From: Turritopsis dohrnii
Taxonomy: Eukaryota > Cnidaria > Hydrozoa > Anthoathecata > Oceaniidae
Length of the DNA stretch: 64,000 bases
Direction of reading: 5' to 3'
NCBI GenBank assembly: GCA_027922465.2
Contig: BQMF02000221.1
Coordinates: forward strand, 605,751-669,750
Both the position numbers and the translations under genes were made by a program. Positions 27,061 to 64,000 of this stretch are shown here, piece after piece; the stretch's first letter is position 1, and each line of letters starts with the position of its first letter. The notes beneath the pieces are model-generated. The model saw only the letters and a list, made by a program, of their open reading frames with translations, searched no databases and was not told where the DNA came from.

Positions 27061-27739
27061 AGCCCTGTGAAAGCAATGGAAATTTATCCATCACAGGTAA
27101 AGAATCCCATAAAGATACCAACAAAAACAATTGATATTATGAAGTTTGTATATAATGTAAATTTTATTTTTCAATAAAATGCTCGTTATGAAAATGCTCG
27201 AAAATGCCCATATTTTCTTTTTAGTTAAAGAAATTTTGACACGAACGCATGGTGATGACACGAAATCATCAAACATGAGAGAGGTACTCCCTCACAGTGT
27301 TTTTTCAGCAATGTGAAAATTTCAGTTTTGCTGAATCCTGTAAAAAAAAAAGTTTAGAAACTTATCAATTATAAAAGATGTTTCATAAATTCATCATTTT
27401 TTCCGAATTTAAATAAATCTTGATTAATTCGTTATTTTTTGCCATTTCAAATGTTTTTTACAGTTGACAATTTTTCAATTGCTTAAGATTCTTGTGTTGG
27501 TCGCACATTCTGCTAATGGATAAATAACTTGCCTTCTACTTCATCTTGACATCGCGTAGGGAGAAGGGACAGTAAAACTATGGTGATCCTGCCACAAAAC
27601 GGAACGATTCAATCCAATGAATGTATTCATTCAATGTATCAATGAAATATCTGTAACGTCTCAATACAACATAAAAACACAAAATTCTAAAAAAAAAAAC
27701 TTTTCATATTGACGAAAGTTTCAGTTCATAAATCAAATA

Positions 27740-29342
27740 ATGCTTCTACATTTTCGTATATACATCTTTCGTACTCTCTTCGCCACGTTATTGGCGTCAA
27801 AATCAAATCAACAGTTTTCATTGGATGGAATGTTTCATCAGCATGAAATCGGATTGGCACTGAATCTAACAACAACATTTGTGATGAAGAGAGATTTAGA
27901 ACACCAGTGTATGATCGACTGTTTCTATAAGGAAGGTTGCGAAGGAGTGAATATCGAAACTGTTCAACAACATGTTTTCTGTCATTTGTTTGTTTTCGAT
28001 CCATGTGTGTTTGTAAACTTCCAACAGTATAAGTTTGTGGTGAGAACAAATTTCAAGTTTCTGCACAAAAGGAGAAGAAGTGATTGCTTGTCTTTGTATG
28101 CTGATGGTATCAGAAAAAGTGGCATTTATAGAATCTCTCCCAATGGGATGGATACATTTCTAGCCTGGTGTGACATGGAAAGTAATGGTGGTGGATGGAC
28201 AGTGATACTTCGACGAACTGATGACGGACTAGAGTTCAACAAAACGTGGGACGATTACAAGAACGGTTTTGGTTCCAATCATGCATCGTTATGGTTAGGT
28301 AATGACAAAATCCATCAACTAACTGGCCACTGTATGAACGAACTTTTTGTGGAATTCACAAGCGACAATAACACAGAGAAATATGCTCGTTATTTTCAAT
28401 TTCAAGTTGGTTCAGAGGAGGACATGTATAAGCTGTCAATCGATGGATTCTGCCACTTTTGCAAAGACACTGCAGGAGACCAGTTGTCAATATACGATAA
28501 TATGACGTTTTCAACAACAGACCAAGACAATAATGGTGGACAATGTTCGTCAAATCACGGTGGAGGTGGCTGGTGGTTTTCATTATGTCACACAGGATAC
28601 ATGACCGGCTTGTATATGGAACCTTACCCAAATGGAAACACATGGGGCGACACGATCAAAGTGATGTACTCCGTGATGAAAACAAGAAGTAAGTCAAATA
28701 TTAAATGTACTTTCCATGAACTTATAGACTTTGCAAATGTTATATAAAGAAGACAGCTTTGTATGAATATTTTATTATTTATATTTTATAATTTATATTT
28801 TATCATTCTGACTCTTGATAGGGAAAAGGAAATGCCATTCCCACAAATTTTCTCAGGTATCATTCAAAATGTACATCATACAATAGGACGTATTAAATGT
28901 TTACTGAGTTCTTCTTATTCGTTAGCTGTTTAATTTTTCAGGAGCTATTATACTATCAGAAGGGAAACCGTCCAACCAATCCTCCGTGCGTGATGGTTAC
29001 ACGGCAAACTTTGGCAACGATGGATCACTTATCGGAAGAGCTCAGACAACTAAAGACAAGCCAAAGTGGTGGGAAGTGGATTTGTTAGAGGTTTCCAGAA
29101 TATTCAGAGTCAGAATTTACAACAGGGATGACTGCTGCCAACATAGGTTAACCTCTATTTACATTAAAGTGCGACCCACATACGACGCCATCTCTGTCAC
29201 ATGCAAACAACTGGGTGATGCTCTTAAAAAGCTTATTGTTGATCTACCTTGTGAAGCAGAAGGTCGATTTCTTCGTTTAGAACAACATAACAATGTTGAT
29301 TTGAACTTCAGAGAGTTGCAGGTATTTGGGATTTTTCCATAA
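27740..29342 (+). CDS. Secreted lectin-like protein: signal peptide, fibrinogen C-terminal domain, F5/8C domain (left-arm copy)
   Basis: Exon 27740-28688 (donor AA|GTAAGT) and exon 28942-29342 (acceptor TTTTTCAG) join in phase to about 449 residues. Residues 1-20 resemble a signal peptide. Residues 48-92 carry spaced cysteines (CMIDCFYKEGC, CHLF) resembling a PAN/apple module, tentatively. From C116 to about 316 is a fibrinogen-related domain: DGIRKSGIYRI, WCDMESNGGGWTVILRR, FNKTWDDYKNGFG, LWLGNDKIHQLT, a calcium-site-like TTDQDNNGGQCS and GGGGWWFSLCH. The second exon is an F5/8-type C (discoidin/fucolectin-like) domain: WWEVDLLEV, RVRIYNRDDCC, RFLRLEQ, ending LQVFGIFP. Such proteins bind glycans outside the cell, often in recognition or immunity; the ligand here is unknown. 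An identical copy faces it in the other arm and a broken paralogue lies at 19.2-20.4 kb. Confidence 0.9.
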
Positions 29343-29926
29343 AATTTTTCACACATATATATTTTGAAGAATGCAAATGATACTTGATTAGAACACTGGG
29401 TGAGGCACGGTGATTCGATTGATGTATATTCGAAGCGAGCACCCTTCACAATTGTGCTTTGTGCAAATTTTTATAAAAATCGGAGAAGTTTCATAATTTG
29501 GTCTTGGTTCATCGTACTTTGTTTTCCGTCGGTGGCGAAATGTGTAAAAACGCTGAGTTAATAATAAGGATTAAATCAACAGAACAGCATGCAAAACACT
29601 GAATGAACAAGTAGACAACAAGATGCAAACAAAATGCCCCTACATGCATTAGGATTTGTGAAAAATCAGCTGAAGCATCAAACATGAAATATTTTATGAC
29701 GTTTTTGAATTTCGAAAGAGAAAGTTGAACGATTTTTGAACAACTATATACAAATACGCCCTGGGCATTGTGAAAGCATAATTAATACAATAACAAACTT
29801 ATATAATATACATGTATATTAATATATTAATTTATTTCTAATTATATATACTCCTTTTTGTAAATATTTAGCTTTGTGTATAATAAAAGTTACTAAGTTC
29901 TAAAAAAAAATATATATTTCTAATTA
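29343..29926. other. Lectin 3' flank
   Basis: AT-rich sequence with ATATATTA-rich stretches near 29800-29920. No gene is recognised. Confidence 0.4.
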
Positions 29927-29975
29927 TTTGGGTGGGTTTGAACCACCGCCCTTTCGGCTAACAGCGGAATGCTGT
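29927..29975 (-). other. tRNA-Asn-like 3' half, degenerate
   Basis: On the minus strand GCTGTTAGCCGAAAGG is followed by GGTGGTTCAAACCCACC, closely resembling the anticodon loop (GTT) through T-arm of animal tRNA-Asn. The T-stem GGTGG/CCACC is perfect. The anticodon stem has a mismatch and no matching D-arm or acceptor 5' strand is present. It is a tRNA-derived fragment within a repeat, not a functional gene. Confidence 0.55.
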
Positions 29976-30624
29976 TGAAGATAAGTATGGGTTTCTTTTA
30001 TAGATTTGGGGTTTTTTTACCAGGACAATTTTGTTTCTGTGTACTGACTAAAACCGCCCCCACCAAGGTTGGGCGGCAAAGAAATATTTTGGGTACTTTT
30101 CTTAAAAACGCCATTTCATGCTATTTCAGAGCGTTAATATGCCGAGGTATTTTCGATCGAAGCAAGGGGTATTGAAGTACAACAAAAGGCCCATAGGTCT
30201 TAAGGTCGGCGCGAACTACTGTATGCTCAAAAATCTAAAGATCATAATCACTTTGCAAAAGAAATGATTAACTTTGTTGTAGAGCTCGAAAAACGGATCA
30301 AAAAAATGTATGGGATCGTTTCGCTACGACCAACCGTTACAGAGATATCATCGATCAAAAGTTTTGATGACGTCACAGACCCGTCCCTAAAAAAAGCTAC
30401 ACCCAAATTTTTTGTAACCCCGTCGCCTGTATCGCGGACCCCAAAAACGTCAGTTATCCCTATTGGCTACCGAGATAATTTCCCCTAAACGTCGCATTCG
30501 ATTAGGGTCTCAATGCAATGGTTTCACACTGACGTCGCACAAAATAAAATGAAATAGTCACTTTCACTATTTATCTACCATTTTGCGTGATAGACAAACA
30601 GAGAATCGGCTATTAATATATAGA
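29976..30624 (-). mobile_element. Helitron-type 5' end segment (minus strand)
   Basis: Read on the minus strand it starts TCTATATATTAATAGCCGAT. It then continues with GTCACGCAAAATGGTAGAT-like sequence, GTGCGACGTCAGTGTGAAAC, AATAGGGATAACTGACGTTT and CCGTTACAGAGATATC-type blocks that match the third plus-strand Helitron unit at 35634-36304. The match fades near 30283. The remainder has no recognisable 3' hairpin. Confidence 0.6.
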
Positions 30625-33174
30625 AGAAGGTGATATCAAGAGTCTACTCTTTGAAGCTGAGACCATCCAGCAACGCCTAAAAAATTTCTCGACGAAATAA
30701 ATCAATTTCACAGATTTCGAAACGCTTCGAAAGATATATGTCAAAAGGAAATGTTAACAGTGCACTAAAACTGCTCACAAACAACACCTCAAATGGCATC
30801 CTTCCACTAACCAATGAGACATATTAAAGTTGCGACAAAAACATCCTGAAGGTAAACGTGCCAATCCGGACATTTTGATCCAAGGAGAAATTCCAGAGGT
30901 CCATCCGGTGATTTTTGAATCGATAGATGAAGAACTTGTAAAAGAAGCCGCTCTTAAAACCAAAGGTGGTTCAGGCCCATCCGGCTGGTGTAAAATATTA
31001 GTTTCGAACCATTACGGGGGCGCCGGGGTTGACTTGAGAAGAGCCTTTTCAGAAATGATCAAGAAAATATGTACATCATGCGAACAAACAACAGGAGGAA
31101 CGTCCTCCTTAGAAGCCTTCCTCGCCTGCAGACTTATCTTCTTCGACAAAAATCCTGGACTACGACCAATAGGTGTAGGAGAAGTACTAAGACGCATAGC
31201 AGGGAAAGTTGTCATGAAGATTGTGAAAAATGACGTGAAAAAAGCTACTGGTGGGTTGCAAATGTGTGGTGGTCACGAATCCGGAGCCAAGGCTGCAATT
31301 CATGCGATGCAAGACATTTTTGCATGGAACGAGACAGAAGCTGTCCTCCTTGTTGATGCCGAAAACGCTTTTAATTCAGTGAATCGTCAAGCCATGCTAC
31401 ATAACATCCAGCACCTATGTCCTGAAATCTATGTTTTCGTCTATAACATCACACAAAGGCGCTACCCAAGGAGATCCCACCGCTATGGCTTCATATGCAC
31501 TAGCACTTGTTCCATTGTTAACTCTTCTTCTGCTTTTCGAAAATCCCGCTTTACAGGTAGCTTTTGCAGACGATATTACTGGTGCTGGCACACTTGAAAG
31601 ATTGCTCACATGATGGAATGTCCTTACCGAAGAAGGTAAAAAATATGGCTACTTCGCAAATGTCTCGAAATCATACCTAATCGTCAAACCCGAACATCTC
31701 GAAAAAGCGAAAAGAATATTTTCGGGTACCGAAATTAACATTACGTCAGCGGGAAAACGTCACCTAGGAGCTGTTATCGGTAGCTTGGACTTCAAGCATG
31801 AATACATAAACAACATGGTCAACAAATGGGAGGAAGAACTACACCTTCTCTCTGAAATCGCCAAAGTCCAACCGCAAGCCGCCTATGCTGCCTTCGTCTT
31901 TGGGTTTAAACATAAATTCACCTACGCCACGAGAACCATCCCTGGTCTTTCAGATCACCTAAGCAAAATCGAGAAGATTCTGCGACAAGAGCTTATACCC
32001 TCGATCATTGGAGAACACAATTGCTCAGACGACGAACGAAAACTACTAGCGCTACCGGTGAAGATGGGAGGCCTTGGAATCGATGAGGTTGAAAAAAGGG
32101 CCGATTTCGAATACGAGGCTTCACGAAAAATCACTGAAAAGCTGGTAAAAAATATAAAGAATCAAGATGCCATAGTCAAAGACAACACCATACATCAGAA
32201 AAGAGTGAAGCTTGAAATAAAAAAAATTAAAAAAGACGAACGAAACCAAAACGACCTCAAAGAAATTTTATCAAGAATGTCGCCAAAAGCTCAACGACAA
32301 CATGAAATTACGTTGGACGGGATGTCAAACTGGTTGACATCTCTACCACTAGAGGAATTCAACTTCAACCTCAATAAAAGAGAATTTTAGGATGCTCTAC
32401 GTCTACGCTATAATTGGTCAATTCCAAATTTACTATCCCGTTGTGCCTGTGGTGATTTATTCAATTTACATCATGCGTTAACTTGCAAAAACGGCGGTTA
32501 TGTAATCCGAAGGCACAATGACCTCAGAGATATTACAGCTACACTACTATCTGAAGTTTGCAACGATGTCGAAGTCGAGCCCGAACTGATAAAGTTGACG
32601 GGTGAAGTAATGCAATACGCCACCGCAAAGAGAAACGACGAAGTGCGTCTCGATATTGCTGCAAGGGATTTCTGGGTCAAAGGCCAAAGAACTTATCTGG
32701 ATGTCAGAGTCTTCGATCCGAACGCCCAAGAAACACCAGAATCTTCCACTGAAACGATGTTACCAGCGTAATGAAAATGAGAAGAAACGCCATTATAATG
32801 AAAGAATCCAACGTGTGGATCAAGGCAGCTTTTTTCCTTTGGGTTTTTTATTAGCGGGTGGAATGGCAGTCGAGGCGAAAGTTTTCTACGCGAGGATATC
32901 CGAGAAGATAGCTACAAAGCGCAACGTTGAACCAAGCGTTATCAAAGGGTGGATCAGAACAGTGATAAACTTTTCACTCATCCGTTCGATGCTGCTGATG
33001 TTGCGAGGCTCAAGAAGTCTTACAAAGAAGATCAACATGGTTGACGAAACCATTGCTGAAGTCACCAGGCATTGTTAAATCACTATTTATGTATATATTT
33101 TATATAAAAAAATTTTATTATTTTGTAAAATTTAATGAAGAAGGAAAATTAACTTTTAAAAATTAATATATAGA
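30612..33174 (+). mobile_element. Non-LTR-like reverse transcriptase element with 13-bp target duplication
   Basis: The 13-mer ATTAATATATAGA lies on both sides (30612-30624 and 33162-33174), enclosing about 2537 bp with broken coding sequence. The motif is itself the start of a Helitron read backwards, so the element inserted exactly at a Helitron end. The coding order from 30830 is an N-terminal RT segment, RT catalytic motifs, a thumb-like region, a zinc-knuckle-like segment and a C-terminal nuclease-like region. The element is probably 5' truncated. Confidence 0.8.
30830..33075 (+). pseudogene. Reverse transcriptase with C-terminal nuclease-like region, several frameshifts
   Basis: Segment 1 (30830 to about 31440) has RPIGVGEVLRRIAGKV, LQMCGGHESG and VLLVDAENAFNSV. 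A frame change leads to GATQGDP (31458-31478) and the catalytic AFADD (about 31563-31577). After a further break, GKKYGYF, YLIVKPEH, GKRHLGA and LPVKMGGLGI follow (to 32390). Next come a CACG...H...C segment near 32448-32495 and RLDIAARDFW...DVRVFDPNA, which has the acidic spacing of a PD-(D/E)XK nuclease, tentatively. Last is GGMAVEAKVFYARI and a SLIRSMLLMLRGSR end. The family is abundant in cnidarian genomes in my recollection; its clade name I leave open. Relative to the right-arm copy, this one has extra frame changes near 32535 and 32945-32970. Confidence 0.75.
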
Positions 33175-33262
33175 TAGCTGCCAAGACGGCGTCGCTCGCC
33201 GCCCATGTTCAGCCTACTTTGAGTTCACGAAAAATAAAATTAAGGAATTGGTTATGATACTG
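33175..33262 (-). mobile_element. Helitron 3' end (minus strand), hairpin form
   Basis: Read on the minus strand: ATTTTATTTTTCGTGA, then GGGCGGCGAGCGACGCCG hairpin sequence, then TCTTGGCAGCTA. This matches the end of the unit finishing at 36304, with CTAT replacing the canonical CTAG. It abuts the 13-bp repeat, so before the RT insertion it formed a head-to-tail junction with the minus-strand Helitron 5' end at 30624. Confidence 0.65.
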
Positions 33263-33382
33263 GTAATGAAAATATCAATATTTTAAGGACTAAGTGGAAC
33301 CTAACAAAATGGCAACTAAATTAAAGAAAGGTTTGTATATAGGTTGGATTAATCCTGATATAAACAGCGAGTAAAATATGTT

Positions 33383-33914
33383 ACCCTATTCATATAAATT
33401 GTTTGCGGGAGAATTCATTAGGGGACAACTCGTTGTGAATCTAACCTAAAAAAACGTGATTTGCTGGACTTAGTTTATCGAATTTGCCAAAAATCTTGAA
33501 ATTTGCAGGACAAACTTGTGCAACTCAAAGACAAATTTGAAAAAATAAATATCCTTTACTCATCATCAGTTTTATTATCTATAATATAAAAAATATTCCC
33601 ATTTTTACAATCTAAAGAATAGAATCTTTCTCATTTTTTACCTGTACAAGAAAGAAAAAAAGCTCTGAATGTAATAGTATTAATAATGATACGGACGGAC
33701 CAAAAAGTAAAATATTATTTCTTCTTGTTTCGGGGTCCATTATTTCCATATATTTCACTTCCCCTTTACGTATATAATTTAGAAATAAATTTGCTCTAAA
33801 AATGAGAAAAAAACGAGGAAATTTTTGGGGATTTCATGAAAAAATTGCAAAAATAAATCCCACAAGAAATAGTGCCGCAAGAAATTCTCCAGCATAAATA
33901 AGTATGAATAAGGT
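33383..33914. mobile_element. MITE with ACCYTATTCATA inverted ends
   Basis: Left ACCCTATTCATATAAATTGT with TTGCGGGAGAATTC; the right end read on the minus strand is ACCTTATTCATACTTATTTA with GGAGAATTTCTTGCGG. It is non-coding, and ends directly before the first Helitron unit. The TTGCGGGAGAA motif recalls the TTAA MITE at 6.9 kb. Confidence 0.6.
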
Positions 33915-33916
33915 AG

Positions 33917-34774
33917 TCTATATATTAATAGCCGATTCTCTGTTTGTTTGTTTGTTTGTTTGTTTGTAAGTCACGCAAAATGGTAGATTGAGTTGTGAGC
34001 GAAATTATTTCTTTTTTTGTGTGCGACGTGAGTTCGAAGCAAATACATTGCAACCCCAATCGAACGTGACTTTTTTTGGCTGATGAACTAATAGGAATAA
34101 CGTTTTGTTTTTATTATTATTGTTAGTTTTATATTCCAAGGACTACGTTGACTACGTTGGCTTTGAAAACAATACATCAACTAAATACAAAGAAACTAAT
34201 TGATTAAACAATTTGGACAAAAAGCAGCAGTGGCAGAACTTGGCAGCATGTTTGCCAGTGTATCCTAACGTATCCTTGCCTGACTGTCTGAGACGGGTAA
34301 ACTTTTTTTCGAGCAATCAAAATGTTTAAAAACCGATAGGTAAAAAAAGAGTATCATGAAACAAAATATTTTTTGCTTTTCTTTTAATTTAATTTCTTTT
34401 TTTAATTGTTAAGCGCTTCTGATCGAACGTTTTTTTATTCTCTTTATTCATTTAGAACGTGCCTTTTTTTCTCTGCTCCTGTGTGATCTTTTTAAGAAGA
34501 GAAACGATTTCCCCCTTACGTTTGATATCACCCATGTTAGAGCGCATAACTTTTTTAAAACAAAAGCTAAAAAAAGTTGGAGTTTCCTCTCTCTACGTTT
34601 TGGGTGTATTGTTACACTGATAAAAGATTGGTTTTACCAGAGGTTGTGACTTCGAATCTGCTTCTGGTTGAACACAAGTTGTACGAGCCGTATATAAGGA
34701 AATTTGACATTTATTGATACAGTGATACAGAGCAGGTGGACATAGGCGGCGAGCGACGCCGCCTTGGCGGCTAG
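33917..34774 (+). mobile_element. Non-autonomous Helitron, tandem unit 1
   Basis: Starts TCTATATATTAATAGCCGAT and ends with the hairpin GGCGGCG-AGCGA-CGCCGCC, seven bases and CTAG, the textbook layout of a Helitron 3' terminus. A GTTTG microsatellite follows the start. There is no Rep/helicase coding capacity. The next unit starts immediately after CTAG. Confidence 0.8.
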
Positions 34775-35633
34775 TCTTTATATTATTAGCCGATTCTCTG
34801 TCTGTCTGTCTGTCTGTTTGTTTGTTTGTTTGTTTGTTTGTAAGTCACGCAAAATGGTAGATTGAGTTGTGAGCGAAATTATTTCTTTTTTTGTGTGCGA
34901 CGTGAGTTCGAAGCAAATACATTGCAACCCAAATCGAACATGACTTTTTTGGCTGATGAACTAATAGGAATAACGTTTTGTTTTTATTATTATTGTTAGT
35001 TTTATATTCCAAGGACTACGTTGACTACGTTGGCTTTGAAAACAATACATCAACTAAATACAAAGAAACCAACTGATTAAACAGTTTGGACAAAAAGCAG
35101 CAGTGGCAGCATGTTTGCCAGTGTATCCTAACGTATCCTTTCCTGATTGTCTGAAACGGGTAAACTTTTTTTCGAGCAATCAAAAATGTTTAAAAACCGA
35201 TAGGTAAAAAAAGAGTATCATGAAACAAAATGTTTTTTTGCTTTTCTTTTAATTTAATTTCTTTTTTTAATTGTTAAGCGCTTCTGATCGAACGTTTTTT
35301 TATTCTCTTTATTCATTTAGCACGTGCCTTTTTTTCTCTCCTCCCGTGTGATCTTTTTAAGAAGAGAAACCATTTCCCCTTTACGTTTGATAGCACCCAT
35401 GTTAGAGCGCGTAACTTTTTTAAAACAAAAGCTAATAAAAAGTTGAAGTTTTCTCTCTCTATGTTTCTATGTTTCTCTCTCTATGTTTTGAAAGTACTGA
35501 TAAAAGATTGGTTTTATTAGAGGTTGTGACTTCGAATCTGCTTTTGGTTGAGCACAAGTTGTACGAGCCGTTTATAAGGAAATTTGACGTTTATTGATAG
35601 AGTGATACAGAGCAGGTGGATATGGGCGGCTAG
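34775..35633 (+). mobile_element. Non-autonomous Helitron, tandem unit 2, hairpin lost
   Basis: Starts TCTTTATATTATTAGCCGAT and is closely similar to unit 1 throughout. It ends GGATATGGGCGGCTAG. Compared with unit 1, the stretch between two GGCGGC direct repeats is missing, which removes the terminal hairpin but leaves CTAG. Confidence 0.75.
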
Positions 35634-36304
35634 TCTATATATTAATAGCCGATTCTCCATTTGTCCGTTTGTCCGTCACGCAAAATGGTAGATTAAGTTG
35701 CAGAGTGATTATTTTATTTTATTTTGTGCGACGTCAAAAAAAATGAAAATGAACTTAACATGGGAGGAAGCTGTGAATATAGCAAAAGCAAACCTGACAG
35801 TATGGAATAACACAATCGATGAACATTTAAAGACTATTCAAGATCTTTTGTAGAGCAAAATCTTTTGTATGTAAATCTTCTATGCGTACTTAGGTAGTGT
35901 AAATTTCTATTTACGGAATAAACCTATTGAATGAATGAATGAATGACGTCAGTGTGAAACCACTGTATTGAGACCCTAATCGAATGCGATGTTTAGGGAA
36001 AATTATCTCCGTAACCAATAGGGATAACTGACGTTTTCTGGGGTCCGCGATATAGGCGATGGGGTGACGAAAAATTTGGGTCCAATTTATTTGGGGAAAG
36101 GATCTATGACGTCATCAAAAGTTTTGATCAACAATATCTCCGTAACGGTTGGTCGTAGCAAAATGATCCCATACATTTTTTTTGATCAGTTTTTCGTGCT
36201 CTACAACATGGATACACTTTCCGTTGTCAATTCCTAAATTTTATTTTTCGTGACATCAACGCAGGTTGAACATGGGCGGCGAGCGACGCCGCCTTGGCGG
36301 CTAG
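35634..36304 (+). mobile_element. Non-autonomous Helitron, tandem unit 3
   Basis: Starts TCTATATATTAATAGCCGAT directly after the CTAG of unit 2 and ends with an intact GGCGGCGAGCGACGCCGCC hairpin and GGCGGCTAG. The middle differs from units 1-2 and matches the minus-strand segment at 30283-30624 (AATAGGGATAACTGACGTTT, GGTTGGTCGTAGCAAAATGA). Confidence 0.75.
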
Positions 36305-36924
36305 TATTGTATAATTGTTTTTGTTTTGTTTCAATGTTCTTTTCTTCGTCTTTATCATCTTATGCACTGATGTGTGTTATTTCCACTGTAATTACTTTTC
36401 CACCAACCTTACATATTTTATAACTCTAATTAATCTCTAATTACTTAATATTTAACCCTTGTACAGTGCGTCTCTGAGAAATTTAGCCCGAAACTTCAAC
36501 AAGTAATAACTTTTTATACACTTGTCAGTTTTTAGCAATTCAAACACCATCAGAAAGATAATTCTGTAAACTATCTTATAATTCAAAAAAACTTTGTATT
36601 TATGGATGGTTAAGAAGCTAAAAGGGATTTTCTAGAGGTAACAGATCATTTAAACTATAATGATCGATTAACACATTCTTACAATAAAAATTACAAAGTG
36701 CTACAGATGTAAACAATAAAACTAAAAGTCATTTTAACAAAATCAATTTTATATGCAAGGGCTTCCGTAACGGATTTTTTGAAGTCTGAAAATATTGAGT
36801 AAAAAATGTGTATTTTCTGCTCTTTTCCCTTGCATTGCCTTGCAGAAATCTAAAAATTGAACAAAGTAGAGGTAGGAGCTAATTGGGCCTTGACTGAGTT
36901 CATTTTTTAAGATTTTATCGCAGA
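36305..36924. other. No gene recognised; possible LINE 5' region
   Basis: AT-rich sequence between the Helitron array and the first LINE codons. A 7-A versus 8-A run here differs between the two arms. Confidence 0.4.
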
Positions 36925-37314
36925 ATGACGAACTTACGAAGAATCTTTATCCACACCGCGTTCCTGTTGTTATTTTTGCTTACTGAAGATTGTAATACCG
37001 AAGCAACGAATATCGCCCGTACAAAGACATTTCATCTGACTAAATCAAAGCGAACAAAATGATCTTCACCACATCCCTACTACAGCAACCACAACACAAC
37101 ATAAAGCATATTATTGGCAGGAGATATCGAAATAAACCCTGGTCCAGCACTATGCAACGTATGTTTAAAAACAGTAAAGTGTAGTACTAGACGTATGGAG
37201 TGCTGCCAATGTAAGTCTGCCACCCACTTTAACTGTACAAAAAACGTTAAAGTGCAGTTTTCAAATGCAAGAATACCATCAATTTGGACTTGCAATAGCT
37301 GTCTTTGGCATACC
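36925..37314 (+). pseudogene. LINE N-terminus: signal peptide, 2A-like motif, PHD finger
   Basis: ATG at 36925 opens a hydrophobic leader (HTAFLLLFLLTE). In the same frame a TGA (37060) and a TAA intervene before LLAGDIEINPGP. GDIEINPGP fits the 2A consensus D-x-E-x-N-P-G-P, which makes ribosomes skip the final Gly-Pro bond. After it comes a Cys4-His-Cys3 PHD-type finger (CNVC, CCQCKSATHFNC, WTCNSC). Known CR1-type LINEs in some invertebrates pair a signal and a 2A in this position. Here the two stops show decay. Confidence 0.75.
37123..37146 (+). other. 2A-like ribosome-skipping motif (DIEINPGP)
   Basis: Encodes D-I-E-I-N-P-G-P, matching the 2A core in every conserved position. Skipping is expected between the last G and P in an intact element. 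Confidence 0.8.
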
Positions 37315-42975: not shown

Positions 42976-43037
42976 CATTTTATATATATATACAAAAAAA
43001 AAAAAATTATCCGTTAGCATTACAGTTTATATCAACG

Positions 43038-51300: not shown

Positions 51301-51472
51301 CAAACGAGGAGCAAATTGAACGTGTATTTAGGTGAGCTATGCTGGTATAGTTCCTGTGACTGTCGATTACATTTAGATGACTGTTGATATCTAGATTAAT
51401 GTTGTTATTAAGGGGAATTTCATGTGGATCATTGACCAATGTTATGTCTTCAACGTTACGAAATGGTAGGGT

Positions 51473-54097
51473 CCCAGCAGGCACCCAACGTTATACTAAC
51501 GTTAGTGTTTCGTTATTTTTTACGTTGTGGTAACGTTAGTGGTTGGTTAGAATGGAAGTCTTTTTTTAATTAGTATAACGTTGGATACTTACGTTAGTAT
51601 AACGTTAGATACTTACGTTAGTATAACGTTAAATACTTACGTTAGTATAACGTTAAATTCTTACGTTAGTATAACGTTAAATACTTACGTTAGCATAACG
51701 TTAGAAAGTTACATGAGGACAACGTTAAATTTCGTTAACAACATCAAAATGTTATAACATTGTAATGACTTCTGAAGTCATTATAAACAAATCCCGGTGT
51801 CCATCCCAACAAAGTAAGACAAATGACGAAAACAGCGAGTAGTCATAGAAGTTGATATTTACCTTTAATTGACAAGAAAAGTATATTTTTATGTCAATAT
51901 TTACGCATGCCTAATAGAAGAAAAAGAAACAAATATAAGTGAAGGTGTTAAACGAATGCTTGTGGTTACGGCAAATTGCAATAAATGAAAATCAATAGAA
52001 ATTTATGCTAGAACAGATATCTATTTTCCAGCTGACTAATGTCCATAGAACAGACATTTTGTGCTTTCATATGTTAACAAAGCAAAACACTCTGGGGATA
52101 CAACAAAATTAATCAGAAACCTTGAGTAAAAGATTTCTATTAAAAATAATCAAGTAGCAGGCCCTAATACTCTAGCTATCATCTATAAGTCATGTAGTAC
52201 AGATCTTGCCAGCAAAACCAAGATTAAATAATCAAACTGATTTCTCGTTTTAAGGCTAGACTAGCACGAAGTATATAATAGATATATAATAGACATATTA
52301 CCATGTGTAAAATGGAGAGGAAATACTAGGTTAGCACGGTAAAAGCGAGTTTTTTCAAGAGATACACTTCTTAATTGAAAAGGCGAAAATGTGTAGCAAG
52401 TGCGAATCAAAATTCATATCATCCTCAAGGACTTACTTATGATAGCCCTTACTAACGTAAGTATTTAACGTTATACTAATTAAAAAAAGACTTCCATTCT
52501 AACCAACCACTAACGTTACCACAACGTAAAAAATAACGTAACACTAACGTTAGTATAACGTAAATTAACGAAATTTAACGTTATACTAACGTAAGTATCT
52601 AACGTTATACTAACGTAAGTATCTAACGTTATACTAACGTAAGTATCTAACGTTATACTAACGTAAGTATTTAACGTTATACTAATTAAAAAAAGACTTC
52701 CATTCTAACCAACCACTAACGTTACCACAACGTAAAAACTAACGTAACACTAACGTTAATACAGTTGACTCTCGATAACTCGAACACTCGAAAACTCGAA
52801 CAACTCGGTAGGTCGAACTTTTTTTAAGGTCCCTTGAGTTTACAAGCCCTTTTGAGGCAAAAAAAATCTCGAAAACTCGAACACTCGAAAAGTCGAACAT
52901 CTCGATAGGTCGAACTTTTTTTTCGGTCCCTACGCTGAATTCCTCTCGATAACTCGAACTTTTCTCAAATATTTTTAAAAAAATTCGAAAAGACGTTGTA
53001 ATTCGAACGTTTGAATTTCGAATGTTTTCGAAAAATTCGAATTTTCAAAACACAGAAGAAACGCATGAAAAACATATCACAAAGATCATTTAAAATGGCG
53101 CCTGTAAAACCACGAAAGCTAGACAATAAATCCATAGGGATTAAATGTAAAGCCCTAAAAGACTTGGAAAAAGGTGTGAAAAACAAGGACGTTGCAGCAA
53201 AGTTAAAAAAACACCCTTTCAACATGCCTCAAAAATAAAAAGAAATTAACAGCTTCACTGGAAAAGAAAGGCATGTCTTCATCACGAAAAAGCACACGTT
53301 GTGGAGACTACGATCAGTTAGATAAAGCTGTTTTTAAATGGTTTGTGGGTACGAAGAGTCAACAAGTTCCAATTGATGGCACCATTCTTAAAGAAAAAGC
53401 CTTGGAATTTGCAAAGAAATTAAAGATTGCGGGGTTTAACAAGTCAAGTCAAACAAAGTTGTATGACCGATTTTTTTCGTAAGAAATGATAAGTAAGAAA
53501 ATTGCTCCAAATTCCTCTGTGTCATTTTCATTTTCTTCTTGATTTAACCTAACACCTTGTCTACCCAGTACACCCTGCGATTTTTGCACTTTCGGTAATA
53601 CATGGAGACAGCGAAAAATACCCGGAGGGAGTCAAAAACGCCGGAACTGGAGATACCGACTATATTACCTAACATCTCGAAAACTCGAACTCTCAATAGG
53701 TCGAACTTTTTTCAAGGTCCCGTGAGAGTTCGAGTTATCGAGAGTCGACTGTACAACGTAAATTAACGAAATTTAACGTTATACTAACGTAAGTATAATC
53801 TAACGTTATACTAACGTAAGTATCTAACGTTATACTAACGTAAGTATTTAACGTTATACTAATTAAAAAAAGACTTCCATTCTAACCAACCACTAACGTT
53901 ACCACAACGTAAAAACTAACGTAACACTAACGTTAATACAACGTAAATTAACGAAATTTAACGTTGTCCTGATGTAACTTTCTAACGTTGTACTAACGTA
54001 AGTAGTTAACGTTGGAATAACGTTGGTTTTACGTTGGTAACGTTAAACCTAGAACCAACGTTAGACTAACGTTAGATAAACGTTGGGTGCCTGCTGG
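51473..54097. mobile_element. ACGTTA-rich MITE, right-arm copy
   Basis: Mirror of 37315-39939, with the same inverted ends and interior. Confidence 0.75.
52762..53751 (+). mobile_element. Tigger derivative, right-arm copy
   Basis: Mirror of 37661-38650. The transposase N-terminal fragments are at 53095-53238 and 53273-53482 (plus). Confidence 0.8.
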
Positions 54098-54487
54098 GGT
54101 ATGCCAAAGACAGCTATTGCAAGTCCAAATTGATGGTATTCTTGCATTTGAAAACTGCACTTTAACGTTTTTTGTACAGTTAAAGTGGGTGGCAGACTTA
54201 CATTGGCAGCACTCCATACGTCTAGTACTACACTTTACTGTTTTTAAACATACGTTGCATAGTGCTGGACCAGGGTTTATTTCGATATCTCCTGCCAATA
54301 ATATGCTTTATGTTGTGTTGTGGTTGCTGTAGTAGGGATGTGGTGAAGATCATTTTGTTCGCTTTGATTTAGTCAGATGAAATGTCTTTGTACGGGCGAT
54401 ATTCGTTGCTTCGGTATTACAATCTTCAGTAAGCAAAAATAACAACAGGAACGCGGTGTGGATAAAGATTCTTCGTAAGTTCGTCAT

Positions 54488-55108
54488 TCTGCGATAAAAT
54501 CTTAAAAAATGAACTCAGTCAAGGCCCAATTAGCTCCTACCTCTACTTTGTTCAATTTTTAGATTTCTGCAAGGCAATGCAAGGGAAAAGAGCAGAAAAT
54601 ACACATTTTTTACTCAATATTTTCAGACTTCAAAAAATCCGTTACGGAAGCCCTTGCATATAAAATTGATTTTGTTAAAATGACTTTTAGTTTTATTGTT
54701 TACATCTGTAGCACTTTGTAATTTTTATTGTAAGAATGTGTTAATCGATCATTATAGTTTAAATGATCTGTTACCTCTAGAAAATCCCTTTTAGCTTCTT
54801 AACCATCCATAAATACAAAGTTTTTTTTGAATTATAAGATAGTTTACAGAATTATCTTTCTGATGGTGTTTGAATTGCTAAAAACTGACAAGTGTATAAA
54901 AAGTTATTACTTGTTGAAGTTTCGGGCTAAATTTCTCAGAGACGCACTGTACAAGGGTTAAATATTAAGTAATTAGAGATTAATTAGAGTTATAAAATAT
55001 GTAAGGTTGGTGGAAAAGTAATTACAGTGGAAATAACACACATCAGTGCATAAGATGATAAAGACGAAGAAAAGAACATTGAAACAAAACAAAAACAATT
55101 ATACAATA
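54488..55108. other. Mirror of 36305-36924; no gene recognised
   Basis: AT-rich sequence. The run of 8 T here corresponds to 7 A in the left arm. Confidence 0.4.
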
Positions 55109-55780
55109 CTAGCCGCCAAGGCGGCGTCGCTCGCCGCCCATGTTCAACCTGCGTTGATGTCACGAAAAATAAAATTTAGGAATTGACAACGGAAAGTGTA
55201 TCCATGTTGTAGAGCACGAAAAACTGATCAAAAAAATGTATGGGATCATTTTGCTACGACCAACCGTTACGGAGATATTGTTGATCAAAAACTTTTGATG
55301 ACGTCATAGATCCTTTCCCCAAATAAATTGGACCCAAATTTTTCGTCACCCCATCGCCTATATCGCGGACCCCAGAAAACGTCAGTTATCCCTATTGGTT
55401 ACGGAGATAATTTTCCCTAAACATCGCATTCGATTAGGGTCTCAATACAGTGGTTTCACACTGACGTCATTCATTCATTCATTCAATAGGTTTATTCCGT
55501 AAATAGAAATTTACACTACCTAAGTACGCATAGAAGATTTACATACAAAAGATTTTGCTCTACAAAAGATCTTGAATAGTCTTTAAATGTTCATCGATTG
55601 TGTTATTCCATACTGTCAGGTTTGCTTTTGCTATATTCACAGCTTCCTCCCATGTTAAGTTCATTTTCATTTTTTTTGACGTCGCACAAAATAAAATAAA
55701 ATAATCACTCTGCAACTTAATCTACCATTTTTGCGTGACGGACAAACGGACAAATGGAGAATCGGCTATTAATATATAGA
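55109..55780 (-). mobile_element. Helitron tandem unit 3, right-arm copy
   Basis: Mirror of 35634-36304, with CTAG and hairpin at the low-coordinate end. Small homopolymer differences from the left arm. Confidence 0.75.
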
Positions 55781-56643
55781 CTAGCCGCCCATATCCACCT
55801 GCTCTGTATCACTCTATCAATAAACGTCAAATTTCCTTATAAACGGCTCGTACAACTTGTGCTCAACCAAAAGCAGATTCGAAGTCACAACCTCTAATAA
55901 AACCAATCTTTTATCAGTACTTTCAAAACATAGAGAGAGAAACATAGAAACATAGAGAGAGAAAAACTTCAACTTTTTATTAGCTTTTGTTTTAAAAAAG
56001 TTACGCGCTCTAACATGGGTGCTATCAAACGTAAAGGGGAAATGGTTTCTCTTCTTAAAAAGATCACACGGGAGGAGAGAAAAAAAAGGCACGTGCTAAA
56101 TGAATAAAGAGAATAAAAAAAACGTTCGATCAGAAGCGCTTAACAATTAAAAAAAGAAATTAAATTAAAAGAAAAGCAAAAAAACATTTTGTTTCATGAT
56201 ACTCTTTTTTTACCTATCGGTTTTTAAACATTTTTTGATTGCTCGAAAAAAAGTTTACCCGTTTCAGACAATCAGGAAAGGATACGTTAGGATACACTGG
56301 CAAACATGCTGCCACTGCTGCTTTTTGTCCAAACTGTTTAATCAGTTGGTTTCTTTGTATTTAGTTGATGTATTGTTTTCAAAGCCAACGTAGTCAAACG
56401 TAGTCCTTGGAATATAAAACTAACAATAATAATAAAAACAAAACGTTATTCCTATTAGTTCATCAGCCAAAAAAGTCATGTTCGATTTGGGTTGCAATGT
56501 ATTTGCTTCGAACTCACGTCGCACACAAAAAAGAAATAATTTCGCTCACAACTCAATCTACCATTTTGCGTGACTTACAAACAAACAAACAAACAAACAA
56601 ACAGACAGACAGACAGACAGAGAATCGGCTAATAATATAAAGA
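55781..56643 (-). mobile_element. Helitron tandem unit 2, right-arm copy, hairpin lost
   Basis: Mirror of 34775-35633, including the same missing hairpin, so that deletion predates the inverted duplication (or is shared by both haplotypes). Confidence 0.75.
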
Positions 56644-57502
56644 CTAGCCGCCAAGGCGGCGTCGCTCGCCGCCTATGTCCACCTGCTCTGTATCACTGTA
56701 TCAATAAATGTCAAATTTCCTTATATACGGCTCGTACAACTTGTGTTCAACCAGAAGCAGATTCGAAGTCACAACCTCTGGTAAAACCAATCTTTATCAG
56801 TGTAACAATACACCCAAAACGTAGAGAGAGGAAACTCCAACTTTTTTTAGCTTTTGTTTTAAAAAAGTTATGCGCTCTAACATGGGTGATATCAAACGTA
56901 AGGGGGAAATCGTTTCTCTTCTTAAAAAGATCACACAGGAGCAGAGAAAAAAAGGCACGTTCTAAATGAATAAAGAGAATAAAAAAACGTTCGATCAGAA
57001 GCGCTTAACAATTAAAAAAAGAAATTAAATTAAAAGAAAAGCAAAAAATTATTTTGTTTCATGATACTCTTTTTTTTACCTATCGTTTTTAAACATTTTG
57101 ATTGCTCGAAAAAAAAGTTTACCCGTCTCAGACAGTCAGGCAAGGATACGTTAGGATACACTGGCAAACATGCTGCCAAGTTCTGCCACTGCTGCTTTTT
57201 GTCCAAATTGTTTAATCAATTAGTTTCTTTGTATTTAGTTGATGTATTGTTTTCAAAGCCAACGTAGTCAACGTAGTCCTTGGAATATAAAACTAACAAT
57301 AATAATAAAAACAAAACGTTATTCCTATTAGTTCATCAGCCAAAAAAAGTCACGTTCGATTGGGGTTGCAATGTATTTGCTTCGAACTCACGTCGCACAC
57401 AAAAAAAGAAATAATTTCGCTCACAACTCAATCTACCATTTTGCGTGACTTACAAACAAACAAACAAACAAACAAACAGAGAATCGGCTATTAATATATA
57501 GA
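56644..57502 (-). mobile_element. Helitron tandem unit 1, right-arm copy
   Basis: Mirror of 33917-34774, with several single-base indels relative to the left arm. Confidence 0.75.
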
Positions 57503-57504
57503 CT

Positions 57505-58033
57505 ACCTTATTCATACTTATTTATGCTGGAGAATTTCTTGCGGCACTATTTCTTGTGGGATTTATTTTTGCAATTTTTTCATGAAATCCCCAAAAATTT
57601 CCTCGTTTTTTTCTCATTTTTAGAGCAAATTTATTTCTAAATTATATACGTAAAGGGGAAGTGAAATATATGGAAATAATGGACCCGAAACAAGAAGAAA
57701 TAATATTTTACTTTTTGGTCCGTCCGTATCATTATTAATACTATTACATTCAGAGCTTTTTTCTTCTTGTACAGGTAAAAAATGAGAAAGATTCTATTCT
57801 TTAGATTGTAAAAAGGGAATATTTTTTATATTATAGATAATAAAAACTGATGATGAGTAAAGGATATTTATTTTTTCAAATTTGTCTTTGAGTTGCACAA
57901 GTTTGTCCTGCAAATTTCAAGATTTTTGGCAAATTCGATAAACTAAGTCCAGCAAATCACGTTTTTTTAGGTTAGATTCACAACGAGTTGTCCCCTAATG
58001 AATTCTCCCGCAAACAATTTATATGAATAGGGT
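57505..58033. mobile_element. ACCYTATTCATA MITE, right-arm copy
   Basis: Mirror of 33383-33914, with a small length difference. Confidence 0.6.
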
Positions 58034-58152
58034 AACATATTTTACTCGCTGTTATATCAGGATTAATCCAACCTATATACAAACCTTTCTTTAATTTAGT
58101 TGCCATTTTGTTAGGTTCCACTTAGTCCTTAAAATATTGATATTTTCATTAC

Positions 58153-58240
58153 CAGTATCATAACCAATTCCTTAATTTTATTTTTCGTGAACTCAAAGTA
58201 GGCTGAACATGGGCGGCGAGCGACGCCGTCTTGGCAGCTA
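58153..58240 (+). mobile_element. Helitron 3' end, right-arm copy
   Basis: Mirror of 33175-33262: GGGCGGCGAGCGACGCCGTC followed by TTGGCAGCTA. Confidence 0.65.
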
Positions 58241-60804
58241 TCTATATATTAATTTTTAAAAGTTAATTTTCCTTCTTCATTAAATTTTACAAAATAATAA
58301 AATTTTTTTTATATAAAATATATACATAAATAGTGATTTAACAATGCCTGGTGACTTCAGCAATGGTTTCGTCAACCATGTTGATCTTCTTTGTAAGACT
58401 TCTTGAGCCTCGCAACATCAGCAGCATCGAACGGATGAGTGAAAAGTTATATCACTGTTCTGATCCACCCTTATGATAACGCTTGGTTCAACGTTGCGCT
58501 TTGTAGCTATCTTCTCGGATATCCTCGCGTAGAAAACTTTCGCCTCGACTGCCATTCCACCCGCTAATAAAAAACCCAAAGGAAAAAAGCTGCCTTGATC
58601 CACACGTTGGATTCTTTCATTATAATGGCGTTTCTTCTCATTTTCATTACGCTGGTAACATCGTTTCAGTGGAAGATTCTGGTGTTTCTTGGGCGTTCGG
58701 ATCGAAGACTCTGACATCCAGATAAGTTCTTTGGCCTTTGACCCAGAAATCCCTTGCAGCAATATCGAGACGCACTTCGTCGTTTCTCTTTGCGGTGGCG
58801 TATTGCATTACTTCACCCGTCAACTTTATCAGTTCGGGCTCGACTTCGACATCGTTGCAAACTTCAGATAGTGTGAGCTGTAATATCTCTGAGGTCATTG
58901 TGCCTTCGGATTACATAACCGCCGTTTTTGCAAGTTAACGCATGATGTAAATTGAATAAATCACCACAGGCACAACGGGATAGTAAATTTGGAATTGACC
59001 AATTATAGCGTAGACGTAGAGCATCCTAAAATTCTCTTTTATTGAGGTTGAAGTTGAATTCCTCTAGTGGTAGAGATGTCAACCAGTTTGACATCCCGTC
59101 CAACGTAATTTCATGTTGTCGTTGAGCTTTTGGCGACATTCTTGATAAAATTTCTTTGAGGTCGTTTTGGTTTCGTTCGTCTTTTTTAATTTTTTTTATT
59201 TCAAGCTTCACTCTTTTCTGATGTATGGTGTTGTCTTTGACTATGGCATCTTGATTCTTTATATTTTTTACCAGCTTTTCAGTGATTTTTCGTGAAGCCT
59301 CGTATTCGAAATCGGCCCTTTTTTCAACCTCATCGATTCCAAGGCCTCCCATCTTCACCGGTAGCGCTAGTAGTTTTCGTTCGTCGTCTGAGCAATTGTG
59401 TTCTCCAATGATCGAGGGTATAAGCTCTTGTCGCAGAATCTTCTCGATTTTGCTTAGGTGATCTGAAAGACCAGGGATGGTTCTCGTGGCGTAGGTGAAT
59501 TTATGTTTAAACCCAAAGACGAAGGCAGCATAGGCGGCTTGCGGTTGGACTTTGGCGATTTCAGAGAGAAGGTGTAGTTCTTCCTCCCATTTGTTGACCA
59601 TGTTGTTTATGTATTCATGCTTGAAGTCCAAGCTACCGATAACAGCTCCTAGGTGACGTTTTCCCGCTGACGTAATGTTAATTTCGGTACCCGAAAATAT
59701 TCTTTTCGCTTTTTCGAGATGTTCGGGTTTGACGATTAGGTATGATTTCGAGACATTTGCGAAGTAGCCATATTTTTTACCTTCTTCGGTAAGGACATTC
59801 CATCATGTGAGCAATCTTTCAAGTGTGCCAGCACCAGTAATATCGTCTGCAAAAGCTACCTGTAAAGCGGGATTTTCGAAAAGCAGAAGAAGAGTTAACA
59901 ATGGAACAAGTGCTAGTGCATATGAAGCCATAGCGGTGGGATCTCCTTGGGTAGCGCCTTTGTGTGATGTTATAGACGAAAACATAGATTTCAGGACATA
60001 GGTGCTGGATGTTATGTAGCATGGCTTGACGATTCACTGAATTAAAAGCGTTTTCGGCATCAACAAGGAGGACAGCTTCTGTCTCGTTCCATGCAAAAAT
60101 GTCTTGCATCGCATGAATTGCAGCCTTGGCTCCGGATTCGTGACCACCACACATTTGCAACCCACCAGTAGCTTTTTTCACGTCATTTTTCACAATCTTC
60201 ATGACAACTTTCCCTGCTATGCGTCTTAGTACTTCTCCTACACCTATTGGTCGTAGTCCAGGATTTTTGTCGAAGAAGATAAGTCTGCAGGCGAGGAAGG
60301 CTTCTAAGGAGGACGTTCCTCCTGTTGTTTGTTCGCATGATGTACATATTTTCTTGATCATTTCTGAAAAGGCTCTTCTCAAGTCAACCCCGGCGCCCCC
60401 GTAATGGTTCGAAACTAATATTTTACACCAGCCGGATGGGCCTGAACCACCTTTGGTTTTAAGAGCGGCTTCTTTTACAAGTTCTTCATCTATCGATTCA
60501 AAAATCACCGGATGGACCTCTGGAATTTCTCCTTGGATCAAAATGTCCGGATTGGCACGTTTACCTTCAGGATGTTTTTGTCGCAACTTTAATATGTCTC
60601 ATTGGTTAGTGGAAGGATGCCATTTGAGGTGTTGTTTGTGAGCAGTTTTAGTGCACTGTTAACATTTCCTTTTGACATATATCTTTCGAAGCGTTTCGAA
60701 ATCTGTGAAATTGATTTATTTCGTCGAGAAATTTTTTAGGCGTTGCTGGATGGTCTCAGCTTCAAAGAGTAGACTCTTGATATCACCTTCTTCTATATAT
60801 TAAT
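58241..60804 (-). mobile_element. Reverse transcriptase element with 13-bp target duplication, right-arm copy
   Basis: Mirror of 30612-33174. The 13-bp repeats are at 58241-58253 and 60792-60804 (TCTATATATTAAT on the plus strand). The nuclease-like C-terminus is more open here: one frame reads from TSEILQLTLSEVC through RLDIAARDFW to DPNAQE without a break (58647-58898), whereas the left arm is frameshifted near 32535. Conversely, this copy has frame changes near 58448-58472. Confidence 0.8.
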
Positions 60805-61440
60805 AGCCGATTCTCTGTTTGTCTATCACGCAAAATGGTAGATAAATAGTGAAAGTGACTATTTCATTTTATTTTGTGCGACGTCAGTGTGAAACCATTG
60901 CATTGAGACCCTAATCGAATGCGACGTTTAGGGGAAATTATCTCGGTAGCCAATAGGGATAACTGACGTTTTTGGGGTCCGCGATACAGGCGACGGGGTT
61001 ACAAAAAATTTGGGTGTAGCTTTTTTTAGGGACGGGTCTGTGACGTCATCAAAACTTTTGATCGATGATATCTCTGTAACGGTTGGTCGTAGCGAAACGA
61101 TCCCATACATTTTTTTGATCCGTTTTTCGAGCTCTACAACAAAGTTAATCATTTCTTTTGCAAAGTGATTATGATCTTTAGATTTTTGAGCATACAGTAG
61201 TTCGCGCCGACCTTAAGACCTATGGGCCTTTTGTTGTACTTCAATACCCCTTGCTTCGATCGAAAATACCTCGGCATATTAACGCTCTGAAATAGCATGA
61301 AATGGCGTTTTTAAGAAAAGTACCCAAAATATTTCTTTGCCGCCCAACCTTGGTGGGGGCGGTTTTAGTCAGTACACAGAAACAAAATTGTCCTGGTAAA
61401 AAAACCCCAAATCTATAAAAGAAACCCATACTTATCTTCA
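60805..61440 (+). mobile_element. Helitron-type 5' end segment, right-arm copy
   Basis: Mirror of 29976-30624 (the 13-bp start is shared with the target duplication). Confidence 0.6.
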
Positions 61441-61489
61441 ACAGCATTCCGCTGTTAGCCGAAAGGGCGGTGGTTCAAACCCACCCAAA
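61441..61489 (+). other. tRNA-Asn-like 3' half, right-arm copy
   Basis: Mirror of 29927-29975; reads directly on the plus strand as GCTGTTAGCCGAAAGG followed by the GGTGG/CCACC T-arm. Confidence 0.55.
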
Positions 61490-62072
61490 TAATTAGAAAA
61501 TATATTTTTTTTTAGAACTTAGTAACTTTTATTATACACAAAGCTAAATATTTACAAAAAGGAGTATATATAATTAGAAATAAATTAATATATTAATATA
61601 CATGTATATTATATAAGTTTGTTATTGTATTAATTATGCTTTCACAATGCCCAGGGCGTATTTGTATATAGTTGTTCAAAAATCGTTCAACTTTCTCTTT
61701 CGAAATTCAAAAACGTCATAAAATATTTCATGTTTGATGCTTCAGCTGATTTTTCACAAATCCTAATGCATGTAGGGGCATTTTGTTTGCATCTTGTTGT
61801 CTACTTGTTCATTCAGTGTTTTGCATGCTGTTCTGTTGATTTAATCCTTATTATTAACTCAGCGTTTTTACACATTTCGCCACCGACGGAAAACAAAGTA
61901 CGATGAACCAAGACCAAATTATGAAACTTCTCCGATTTTTATAAAAATTTGCACAAAGCACAATTGTGAAGGGTGCTCGCTTCGAATATACATCAATCGA
62001 ATCACCGTGCCTCACCCAGTGTTCTAATCAAGTATCATTTGCATTCTTCAAAATATATATGTGTGAAAAATT
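61490..62072. other. Lectin 3' flank, right-arm copy
   Basis: Mirror of 29343-29926, with one small difference near an A/T run at about 61500. No gene is recognised. Confidence 0.4.
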
Positions 62073-63675
62073 TTATGGAAAAATCCCAAATACCTGCAAC
62101 TCTCTGAAGTTCAAATCAACATTGTTATGTTGTTCTAAACGAAGAAATCGACCTTCTGCTTCACAAGGTAGATCAACAATAAGCTTTTTAAGAGCATCAC
62201 CCAGTTGTTTGCATGTGACAGAGATGGCGTCGTATGTGGGTCGCACTTTAATGTAAATAGAGGTTAACCTATGTTGGCAGCAGTCATCCCTGTTGTAAAT
62301 TCTGACTCTGAATATTCTGGAAACCTCTAACAAATCCACTTCCCACCACTTTGGCTTGTCTTTAGTTGTCTGAGCTCTTCCGATAAGTGATCCATCGTTG
62401 CCAAAGTTTGCCGTGTAACCATCACGCACGGAGGATTGGTTGGACGGTTTCCCTTCTGATAGTATAATAGCTCCTGAAAAATTAAACAGCTAACGAATAA
62501 GAAGAACTCAGTAAACATTTAATACGTCCTATTGTATGATGTACATTTTGAATGATACCTGAGAAAATTTGTGGGAATGGCATTTCCTTTTCCCTATCAA
62601 GAGTCAGAATGATAAAATATAAATTATAAAATATAAATAATAAAATATTCATACAAAGCTGTCTTCTTTATATAACATTTGCAAAGTCTATAAGTTCATG
62701 GAAAGTACATTTAATATTTGACTTACTTCTTGTTTTCATCACGGAGTACATCACTTTGATCGTGTCGCCCCATGTGTTTCCATTTGGGTAAGGTTCCATA
62801 TACAAGCCGGTCATGTATCCTGTGTGACATAATGAAAACCACCAGCCACCTCCACCGTGATTTGACGAACATTGTCCACCATTATTGTCTTGGTCTGTTG
62901 TTGAAAACGTCATATTATCGTATATTGACAACTGGTCTCCTGCAGTGTCTTTGCAAAAGTGGCAGAATCCATCGATTGACAGCTTATACATGTCCTCCTC
63001 TGAACCAACTTGAAATTGAAAATAACGAGCATATTTCTCTGTGTTATTGTCGCTTGTGAATTCCACAAAAAGTTCGTTCATACAGTGGCCAGTTAGTTGA
63101 TGGATTTTGTCATTACCTAACCATAACGATGCATGATTGGAACCAAAACCGTTCTTGTAATCGTCCCACGTTTTGTTGAACTCTAGTCCGTCATCAGTTC
63201 GTCGAAGTATCACTGTCCATCCACCACCATTACTTTCCATGTCACACCAGGCTAGAAATGTATCCATCCCATTGGGAGAGATTCTATAAATGCCACTTTT
63301 TCTGATACCATCAGCATACAAAGACAAGCAATCACTTCTTCTCCTTTTGTGCAGAAACTTGAAATTTGTTCTCACCACAAACTTATACTGTTGGAAGTTT
63401 ACAAACACACATGGATCGAAAACAAACAAATGACAGAAAACATGTTGTTGAACAGTTTCGATATTCACTCCTTCGCAACCTTCCTTATAGAAACAGTCGA
63501 TCATACACTGGTGTTCTAAATCTCTCTTCATCACAAATGTTGTTGTTAGATTCAGTGCCAATCCGATTTCATGCTGATGAAACATTCCATCCAATGAAAA
63601 CTGTTGATTTGATTTTGACGCCAATAACGTGGCGAAGAGAGTACGAAAGATGTATATACGAAAATGTAGAAGCAT
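62073..63675 (-). CDS. Secreted fibrinogen-domain/F5-8C lectin, right-arm copy
   Basis: Mirror of 27740-29342, with first exon 62727-63675 and second exon 62073-62473 on the minus strand. The translated protein is identical to the left-arm copy, including splice sites, so both would be functional if the palindrome is real. The two copies are transcribed toward each other across the 33-kb transposon-filled interior. Confidence 0.88.
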
Positions 63676-64000
63676 TATTTGATTTATGAACTGAAACTTT
63701 CGTCAATATGAAAAGTTTTTTTTTTTAGAATTTTGTGTTTTTATGTTGTATTGAGACGTTACAGATATTTCATTGATACATTGAATGAATACATTCATTG
63801 GATTGAATCGTTCCGTTTTGTGGCAGGATCACCATAGTTTTACTGTCCCTTCTCCCTACGCGATGTCAAGATGAAGTAGAAGGCAAGTTATTTATCCATT
63901 AGCAGAATGTGCGACCAACACAAGAATCTTAAGCAATTGAAAAATTGTCAACTGTAAAAAACATTTGAAATGGCAAAAAATAACGAATTAATCAAGATTT
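63676..64000. other. Lectin 5' flank, right-arm copy
   Basis: Mirror of 27415-27739: presumptive promoter region with no motif I can name. The mirror is still intact at the final base. Confidence 0.5.

Follow-up and report, generated by a model that had tools for sequence, protein, structure and literature searches.

The last 64,000 nucleotides of contig BQMF02000221.1 (C221) of the hydrozoan Turritopsis dohrnii (assembly GCA_027922465.2, positions 605,751 to 669,750; hereafter the window) end in a near-perfect palindrome. We read this palindrome, with a probability of about 0.5, as part of a real and young inverted duplication of a segment of ~23.7 kb, and a real recent inverted duplication is considered slightly more likely than a fold-back introduced during assembly. 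Two observations favour a real duplication: the segment has a second outer flank on another contig of the assembly (C726), and a rearrangement junction lies at its outer edge.

As assembled, the palindrome consists of a left arm at 27415-45613 (+; 18,199 bp) and an inverted right arm at 45799-64000 (-; 18,202 bp), separated by a spacer of 185 bp at 45614-45798, i.e. two inverted copies around a single-copy spacer, as in a fold-back inverted duplication. The two ~18.2-kb inverted arms and the 185-bp gap described in an initial annotation of the window were borne out, with an identity between arms of 99.846% in blastn. A banded alignment of the arms revealed 27 differences, all of them single-base insertions or deletions (indels; 12 extra bases in the left arm and 15 in the right), and no substitutions; the few mismatches reported by blastn and MAFFT were only apparent, being shifted indels. 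The central 9,029 bp of the arms matched perfectly, and the 95% upper bound on the divergence between arms was ~0.00016. Further, all seven tandem arrays checked were the same in both arms, although arrays of this type would be expected to drift. A palindrome arising by chance is excluded. A query with the inner part of the arm, 35900-38450, drew 6,090 candidates; of the 40 that were scored, the two C221 arms alone carried it in full, and the other matches were single elements.

C221 is 669,750 bp long, and the palindrome stops at 64000 because the contig stops there. The size of at least 36.6 kb given initially holds, but the window edge at which the palindrome was said to run on is the contig end itself. 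Similarly, 27415 is the start of the palindrome as assembled, while the duplicated segment reaches further left, to 21949, in common with C726.

The assembly matches TUR_r2.0.1, which according to its published description (PMC9835754) was built from PacBio Sequel subreads of a library peaking at 15 kb by means of FALCON, FALCON-Unzip, Arrow, Pilon and then Purge_haplotigs; the DNA came from a single clone, of which about 1,500 medusae were used and whose heterozygosity was 1.88%. In an assembly from a heterozygous clone, phased and purged, a contig might run along one haplotype and then along the other in reverse, a haplotype join that the initial annotation had offered as an option. However, ~342 substitutions per arm would be expected at 1.88%, and none was seen in 18,199 bp. 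This option was therefore rejected; it could hold only if the clone were homozygous along the entire arm, and we regard it as barely credible. The palindrome and fold-back readings offered alongside it both stand.

The segment on a second contig and its outer junction

A third copy of 27415-30200 was found at C726:137716-140501, with a score equal to that of the left arm itself. Homology between C726 (146,263 bp) and the window begins at 21949, is absent further left, and runs to the end of C726, which corresponds to window position 35962, inside the segment. Comparison with C726 thus delimits 21949-27414 (+) as the left-hand outer portion of the duplicated segment. The two contigs were identical over 25176-33545, where the pieces 25176-25898, 25899-27899, 29599-30899 and 30900-33545 agreed letter for letter and the 27415-30200 match fills the gap. 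Such an exact match is unlike that of allelic copies, which would differ by 1.88%. Left of 25176, C726 carried an insertion of 98 bp, smaller gaps were present, and 42 mismatches were observed, all of which lay in 22627-25175 (about 1.65%) and none in 21949-22626.

Where the left copy meets its outer flank, a stretch of 319 bp (21635-21953, +) matched a third locus, C171:69065-69383, at 318 of 319 positions. The last five bases of this stretch (TATCT) are also the start of the duplicated segment, a 5-bp microhomology, and the stretch is read as a templated insertion. The outer end of the left copy is hence joined, at 21949, to different sequence by way of an inserted piece, as in a fold-back duplication.

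The same boundary runs through a DOCK-type gene. On C726, frames matching DHR-2 Lobe A (two frames) and Lobe B lie left of the shared segment, and the segment itself carries DHR-2 Lobe C in two open frames, the first part at 21917-22174 (+), belonging to the 3' fragment of the gene on C221, and the last part at 23593-23811 (+). C221 keeps the Lobe C part only. Since the Lobe A and Lobe B exons on C726 precede the shared Lobe C, the gene crosses the boundary on C726 and is cut at 21949 on C221.

The 1.65% difference in 22627-25175 is of allelic size, and we take it to reflect mixed haplotypes in the C726 contig or later conversion. It could also be the unconverted edge of an old palindrome kept identical by gene conversion from arm to arm. 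If C726 were the outer right arm, identity from 25176 inward with substitutions further out would fit such a history. However, 21949-22626 lies outside the patch and has no substitutions, the patch diverges about as much as published for alleles (1.88%), and the 319-bp insertion differs from its C171 match at only one site, which suggests a recent event. An old, converted palindrome is thus quite improbable.

C726 appears not to be a leftover haplotig, because two stretches found only on C726 lacked a comparable second copy among the candidates scored. Across the whole assembly, no allele-like second copy was detected for C726:128201-132100 (3,900 bp) among 40 scored of 4,830 candidates, nor for C726:60000-60999 (1,000 bp) among 40 scored of 1,740. 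When four 1-kb samples of C726 and the 3.9-kb stretch were compared with C221:575751-669750, only repeat-type matches of at most 86% were obtained, and the view of C726 as an ordinary haplotig of the left flank of C221 was rejected. In this purged assembly the segment is bordered on its outer side by two different sequences, C221 left of 21949 and C726. The opposite end of C726 (C726:1-500) is a repeat related to window 33956-35321 (87-89%), so that this contig is bounded by repeats on both sides.

The spacer, the centre join and a proposed origin

The spacer (+ strand; GC content 0.28) occurs as a whole only once in the window and is continuous with the left arm in other repeat copies. The stretch 45531-45743 is uninterrupted at C470:104996-105210 (96%), and further copies hold its parts. 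Because this stretch lies in one piece at C470, the spacer is native to the left arm, in line with the continuity between spacer and one copy seen in fold-back duplications. Its end belongs to a (TTTA)n-tailed repeat piece (45744-45799, +) with three other genomic copies, two on C15 and one on C3 (100, 98 and 98% over 52-58 bp). In all three, CACTTCAG is followed by AA(T or A)AATTACAAATTCTG, whereas in the window CACTTCAG is followed by the inverse of the left arm. Since the three copies continue differently past that point, the novel join is placed at 45799, on the right-arm side. Judged from the same three copies, one base (G) is shared at this join rather than an inverted microhomology of at least 2 bp.

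No adapter match was detected at the spacer with four sequencing-adapter sequences, whose best scores were at or below the window background; the turn consists of genomic sequence, and not of adapter or of no sequence at all. The centre as a whole (45500-45900) was found only in C221 among 40 scored of 80 candidates, and no spacer joined to a different continuation was present among these.

To describe the order of the pieces, we denote by D the 5' part of the DOCK gene on C726, by A the segment 21949-45613, by sp the spacer and by Y the native continuation, the native order being D, A, sp and Y. C221 then reads Z, the 319 bp like C171, A, sp, inverted A and contig end, while C726 reads D, A and contig end, with DOCK-type exons running from D into A. 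In the most economical single arrangement, inverted A on C221 would lead into inverted D, and the two contigs would represent the two sides of a palindrome of ~47 kb, which the assembler, we propose, could not join because both stop inside an identical arm. As for the origin of such a structure, the chromosome would firstly have broken just past the spacer. The broken end may then have been fused, or copied, back onto the inverted strand of the same or the sister molecule, 185 bp inside, with one shared base. In the symmetric, double-ended product, either side was liable to break later; the side bearing the spacer would have done so, at 21949 in the DOCK intron, and the end may have healed onto Z by means of the 319-bp copy from C171 and the 5-bp microhomology.

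Human non-recurrent inverted duplications that adjoin translocations are ascribed to fold-back and breakage-fusion-bridge events and may carry junction insertions; in 21 sequenced cases the spacers measured 766-70,466 bp, and inverted microhomology of 2-8 bp was present in 13 (PMC3907307). The structure described here shares with them the inverted copies, a short non-duplicated spacer continuous with one copy, and the attachment of one copy's outer end to foreign DNA through an inserted piece. It differs in its spacer of 185 bp, the single base shared at the centre and a segment of tens of kb, and in being known from an assembly. Inverted gene pairs of Caenorhabditis that are kept identical (PMC1803023) likewise combine near-identical copies with short spacers (126 and 414 bp in two examples), but are conserved between species and have intergenic arms of 124-160 bp.

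With regard to stability, one review describes wild-type yeast as stably maintaining inverted elements of 6 kb whose spacer measures 280 bp (PMC7999016), and a 185-bp spacer is therefore compatible with persistence. In mice, palindromic transgenes underwent rearrangement in about 35% of offspring, and their stability rose 25-fold once they had become asymmetric (PMC8701086). According to a further review, long palindromes with a very short spacer are unstable wherever they are introduced and seldom occur in natural genomes (PMC10766186).

Duplication or technical fold-back

Twenty-six of the 27 indels between the arms fell within a patch at 32541-36584 (+, left-arm coordinates), mirrored at 54828-58876 (-) in the right arm. 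This clustering exceeds chance, as 20,000 random placements gave a maximum of 17 per stretch of equal length. Among homopolymer runs of at least 7 bases, 9 of 21 differed inside the patch, counted by hand from the banded alignment, compared to 0 of 20 outside (Fisher p 0.0013), and mere homopolymer richness was rejected as its cause on these counts. A three-way vote including C726 was possible at 24 of the 27 indels, within 29599-35962. The right arm was the odd one at 23 sites and the left arm at one (34886); additional deviations peculiar to C726 occupied 17 columns of the alignment. In addition, a frame resembling a long interspersed nuclear element (LINE) at ~32.4-33.1 kb is kept in the left arm at sites where indels shift it in the right; the initial statement that all genes and frameshifts are mirrored does not hold here. 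The 27 indels with no substitutions are the spectrum of consensus errors rather than of divergence, and the right arm appears to be the poorly supported copy, since it is odd at 23 of 24 sites and the LINE-like frame is shifted there.

These features also suit a technical fold-back, in which a hairpin-capped or adapter-less molecule of ~18.4 kb was read out and back and the palindromic read, taken by the assembler as a long seed, became the end of C221; the link between C726 and the segment would then stem from a rearrangement in the heterozygous state or from an independent duplication. We give this explanation a little less than an even chance. If hairpin-capped, a molecule of that length would produce exactly such a contig end, with the spacer as its loop. 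FALCON starts from long seed reads. Two studies document palindromic reads in amplified DNA (PMC6218980, PMC13265396), and a survey gives fold-back reads at 0.55-0.6% in nanopore DNA and virtually none in a few PacBio HiFi sets (PMC12870357); the library used here is of the older subread type. The right arm resembles the artefacts of these three reports in being a copy without substitutions that ends with the contig and carries consensus errors, and the locus departs from them in its 185-bp genomic spacer without adapter and in the different outer flank on a second contig. A plain missed adapter should leave either adapter or no spacer, and both the flank on C726 and the junction at 21949 would need an independent explanation. 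No report of terminal palindromes in FALCON assemblies was found in a literature search.

Several points weigh against the real duplication that we prefer. The right arm terminates precisely where the contig does, an inverted copy without exit, which favours an artefact, and no contig shows this arm leaving the palindrome. The arm length of 18.2 kb is near that of one insert of the 15-kb-peak PacBio library. The predominance of right-arm deviations at the scored indel sites is as expected of thin support. The centre, with one shared base and a 185-bp spacer, departs from the spacer lengths and the 2-8 bp microhomologies of the human cases cited above (PMC3907307). The 1.65% patch relative to C726 requires a step beyond a single recent duplication, and a heterozygous rearrangement at 21949 could yield two flanks without any palindrome. 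The indel bias itself was weighed as nearly neutral, because any contig end is thinly covered, and was given little weight also because reads that fit the left arm better are drawn off the right. In its full form, the preferred reading is that of a natural, near-perfect palindrome of ~47 kb with a 185-bp spacer, kept in the germ and body cells of a clone, in which the far end of a fold-back event was healed onto another chromosome with a copied-in patch of 319 bp, a lectin-like gene was doubled, an extra DOCK gene piece was left in broken form, and C221 and C726 belong together; for this whole we see the odds as evenly balanced.

Gene content, repeats and significance

Each arm carries an open reading frame (ORF) with a Fibrinogen_C domain (27740-28747, +; 62668-63675, -), whose best protein match, from Saccostrea, was 33%, and an F5/8 type C-like ORF (28926-29342, +; 62073-62489, -) that is identical in its mirror copy. 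Older fibrinogen/F5-8C-like paralogues occur at 19202-20397 (-) and C221:502378-504324, with 80% and 82% identity to 27415-29342, so that the locus is a local cluster of lectin-like genes with an earlier inverted copy.

The arms also hold frames from mobile elements: a LINE reverse transcriptase (RVT_1; 41684-42379, +, mirrored at 49033-49728), a second reverse transcriptase (RVT_1; 43988-45106, -, mirrored at 46306-47424) and a Tc5-type transposase DNA-binding domain (37930-38205, -, mirrored at 53207-53482). A single mobile element with long inverted ends was rejected, as the arms hold unrelated retroelement and transposon pieces and the lectin-like gene, and the longer segment holds DOCK exons. 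The Tc5-type remnant appears to interrupt a LINE and is flanked by arrays of a 24-bp unit (TAACGTTATACTAACGTAAGTATC) at 37382-37660, 38649-38962 and 39674-39924, near-identical copies of which are dispersed over many contigs.

Elsewhere in the window, a frame of 679 amino acids at 598-2637 (-) matched no Pfam family and had 61 relatives among the matches listed (best 68%, Clytia 53%); it looks like a repeated element of hydrozoans. Scattered frames at 12000-17600 resemble membrane transporter exons, with a weak, below-cut-off Sugar_tr match at 14544-14819. A dispersed repeat of ~105-120 bp (e.g. 3753-3867, 13989-14111, 15844-15957 and 26088-26212) has many copies in the window and the assembly. 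Neither an RNA family at gathering score nor a tRNA gene was detected in the window.

If the palindrome is an artefact, 18 kb of the reference are spurious, among them one additional lectin-like gene and two additional frames for reverse transcriptase, and should be trimmed ahead of gene counts or copy-number work. If it is real, it would connect two contigs of a reference on which studies of rejuvenation draw, and a long palindrome whose spacer is very short would have survived in an animal kept as a clone, with both junctions at base resolution. In that case, the event would have doubled a lectin-like gene and left a broken extra piece of a DOCK gene in a clone of a rejuvenating jellyfish.

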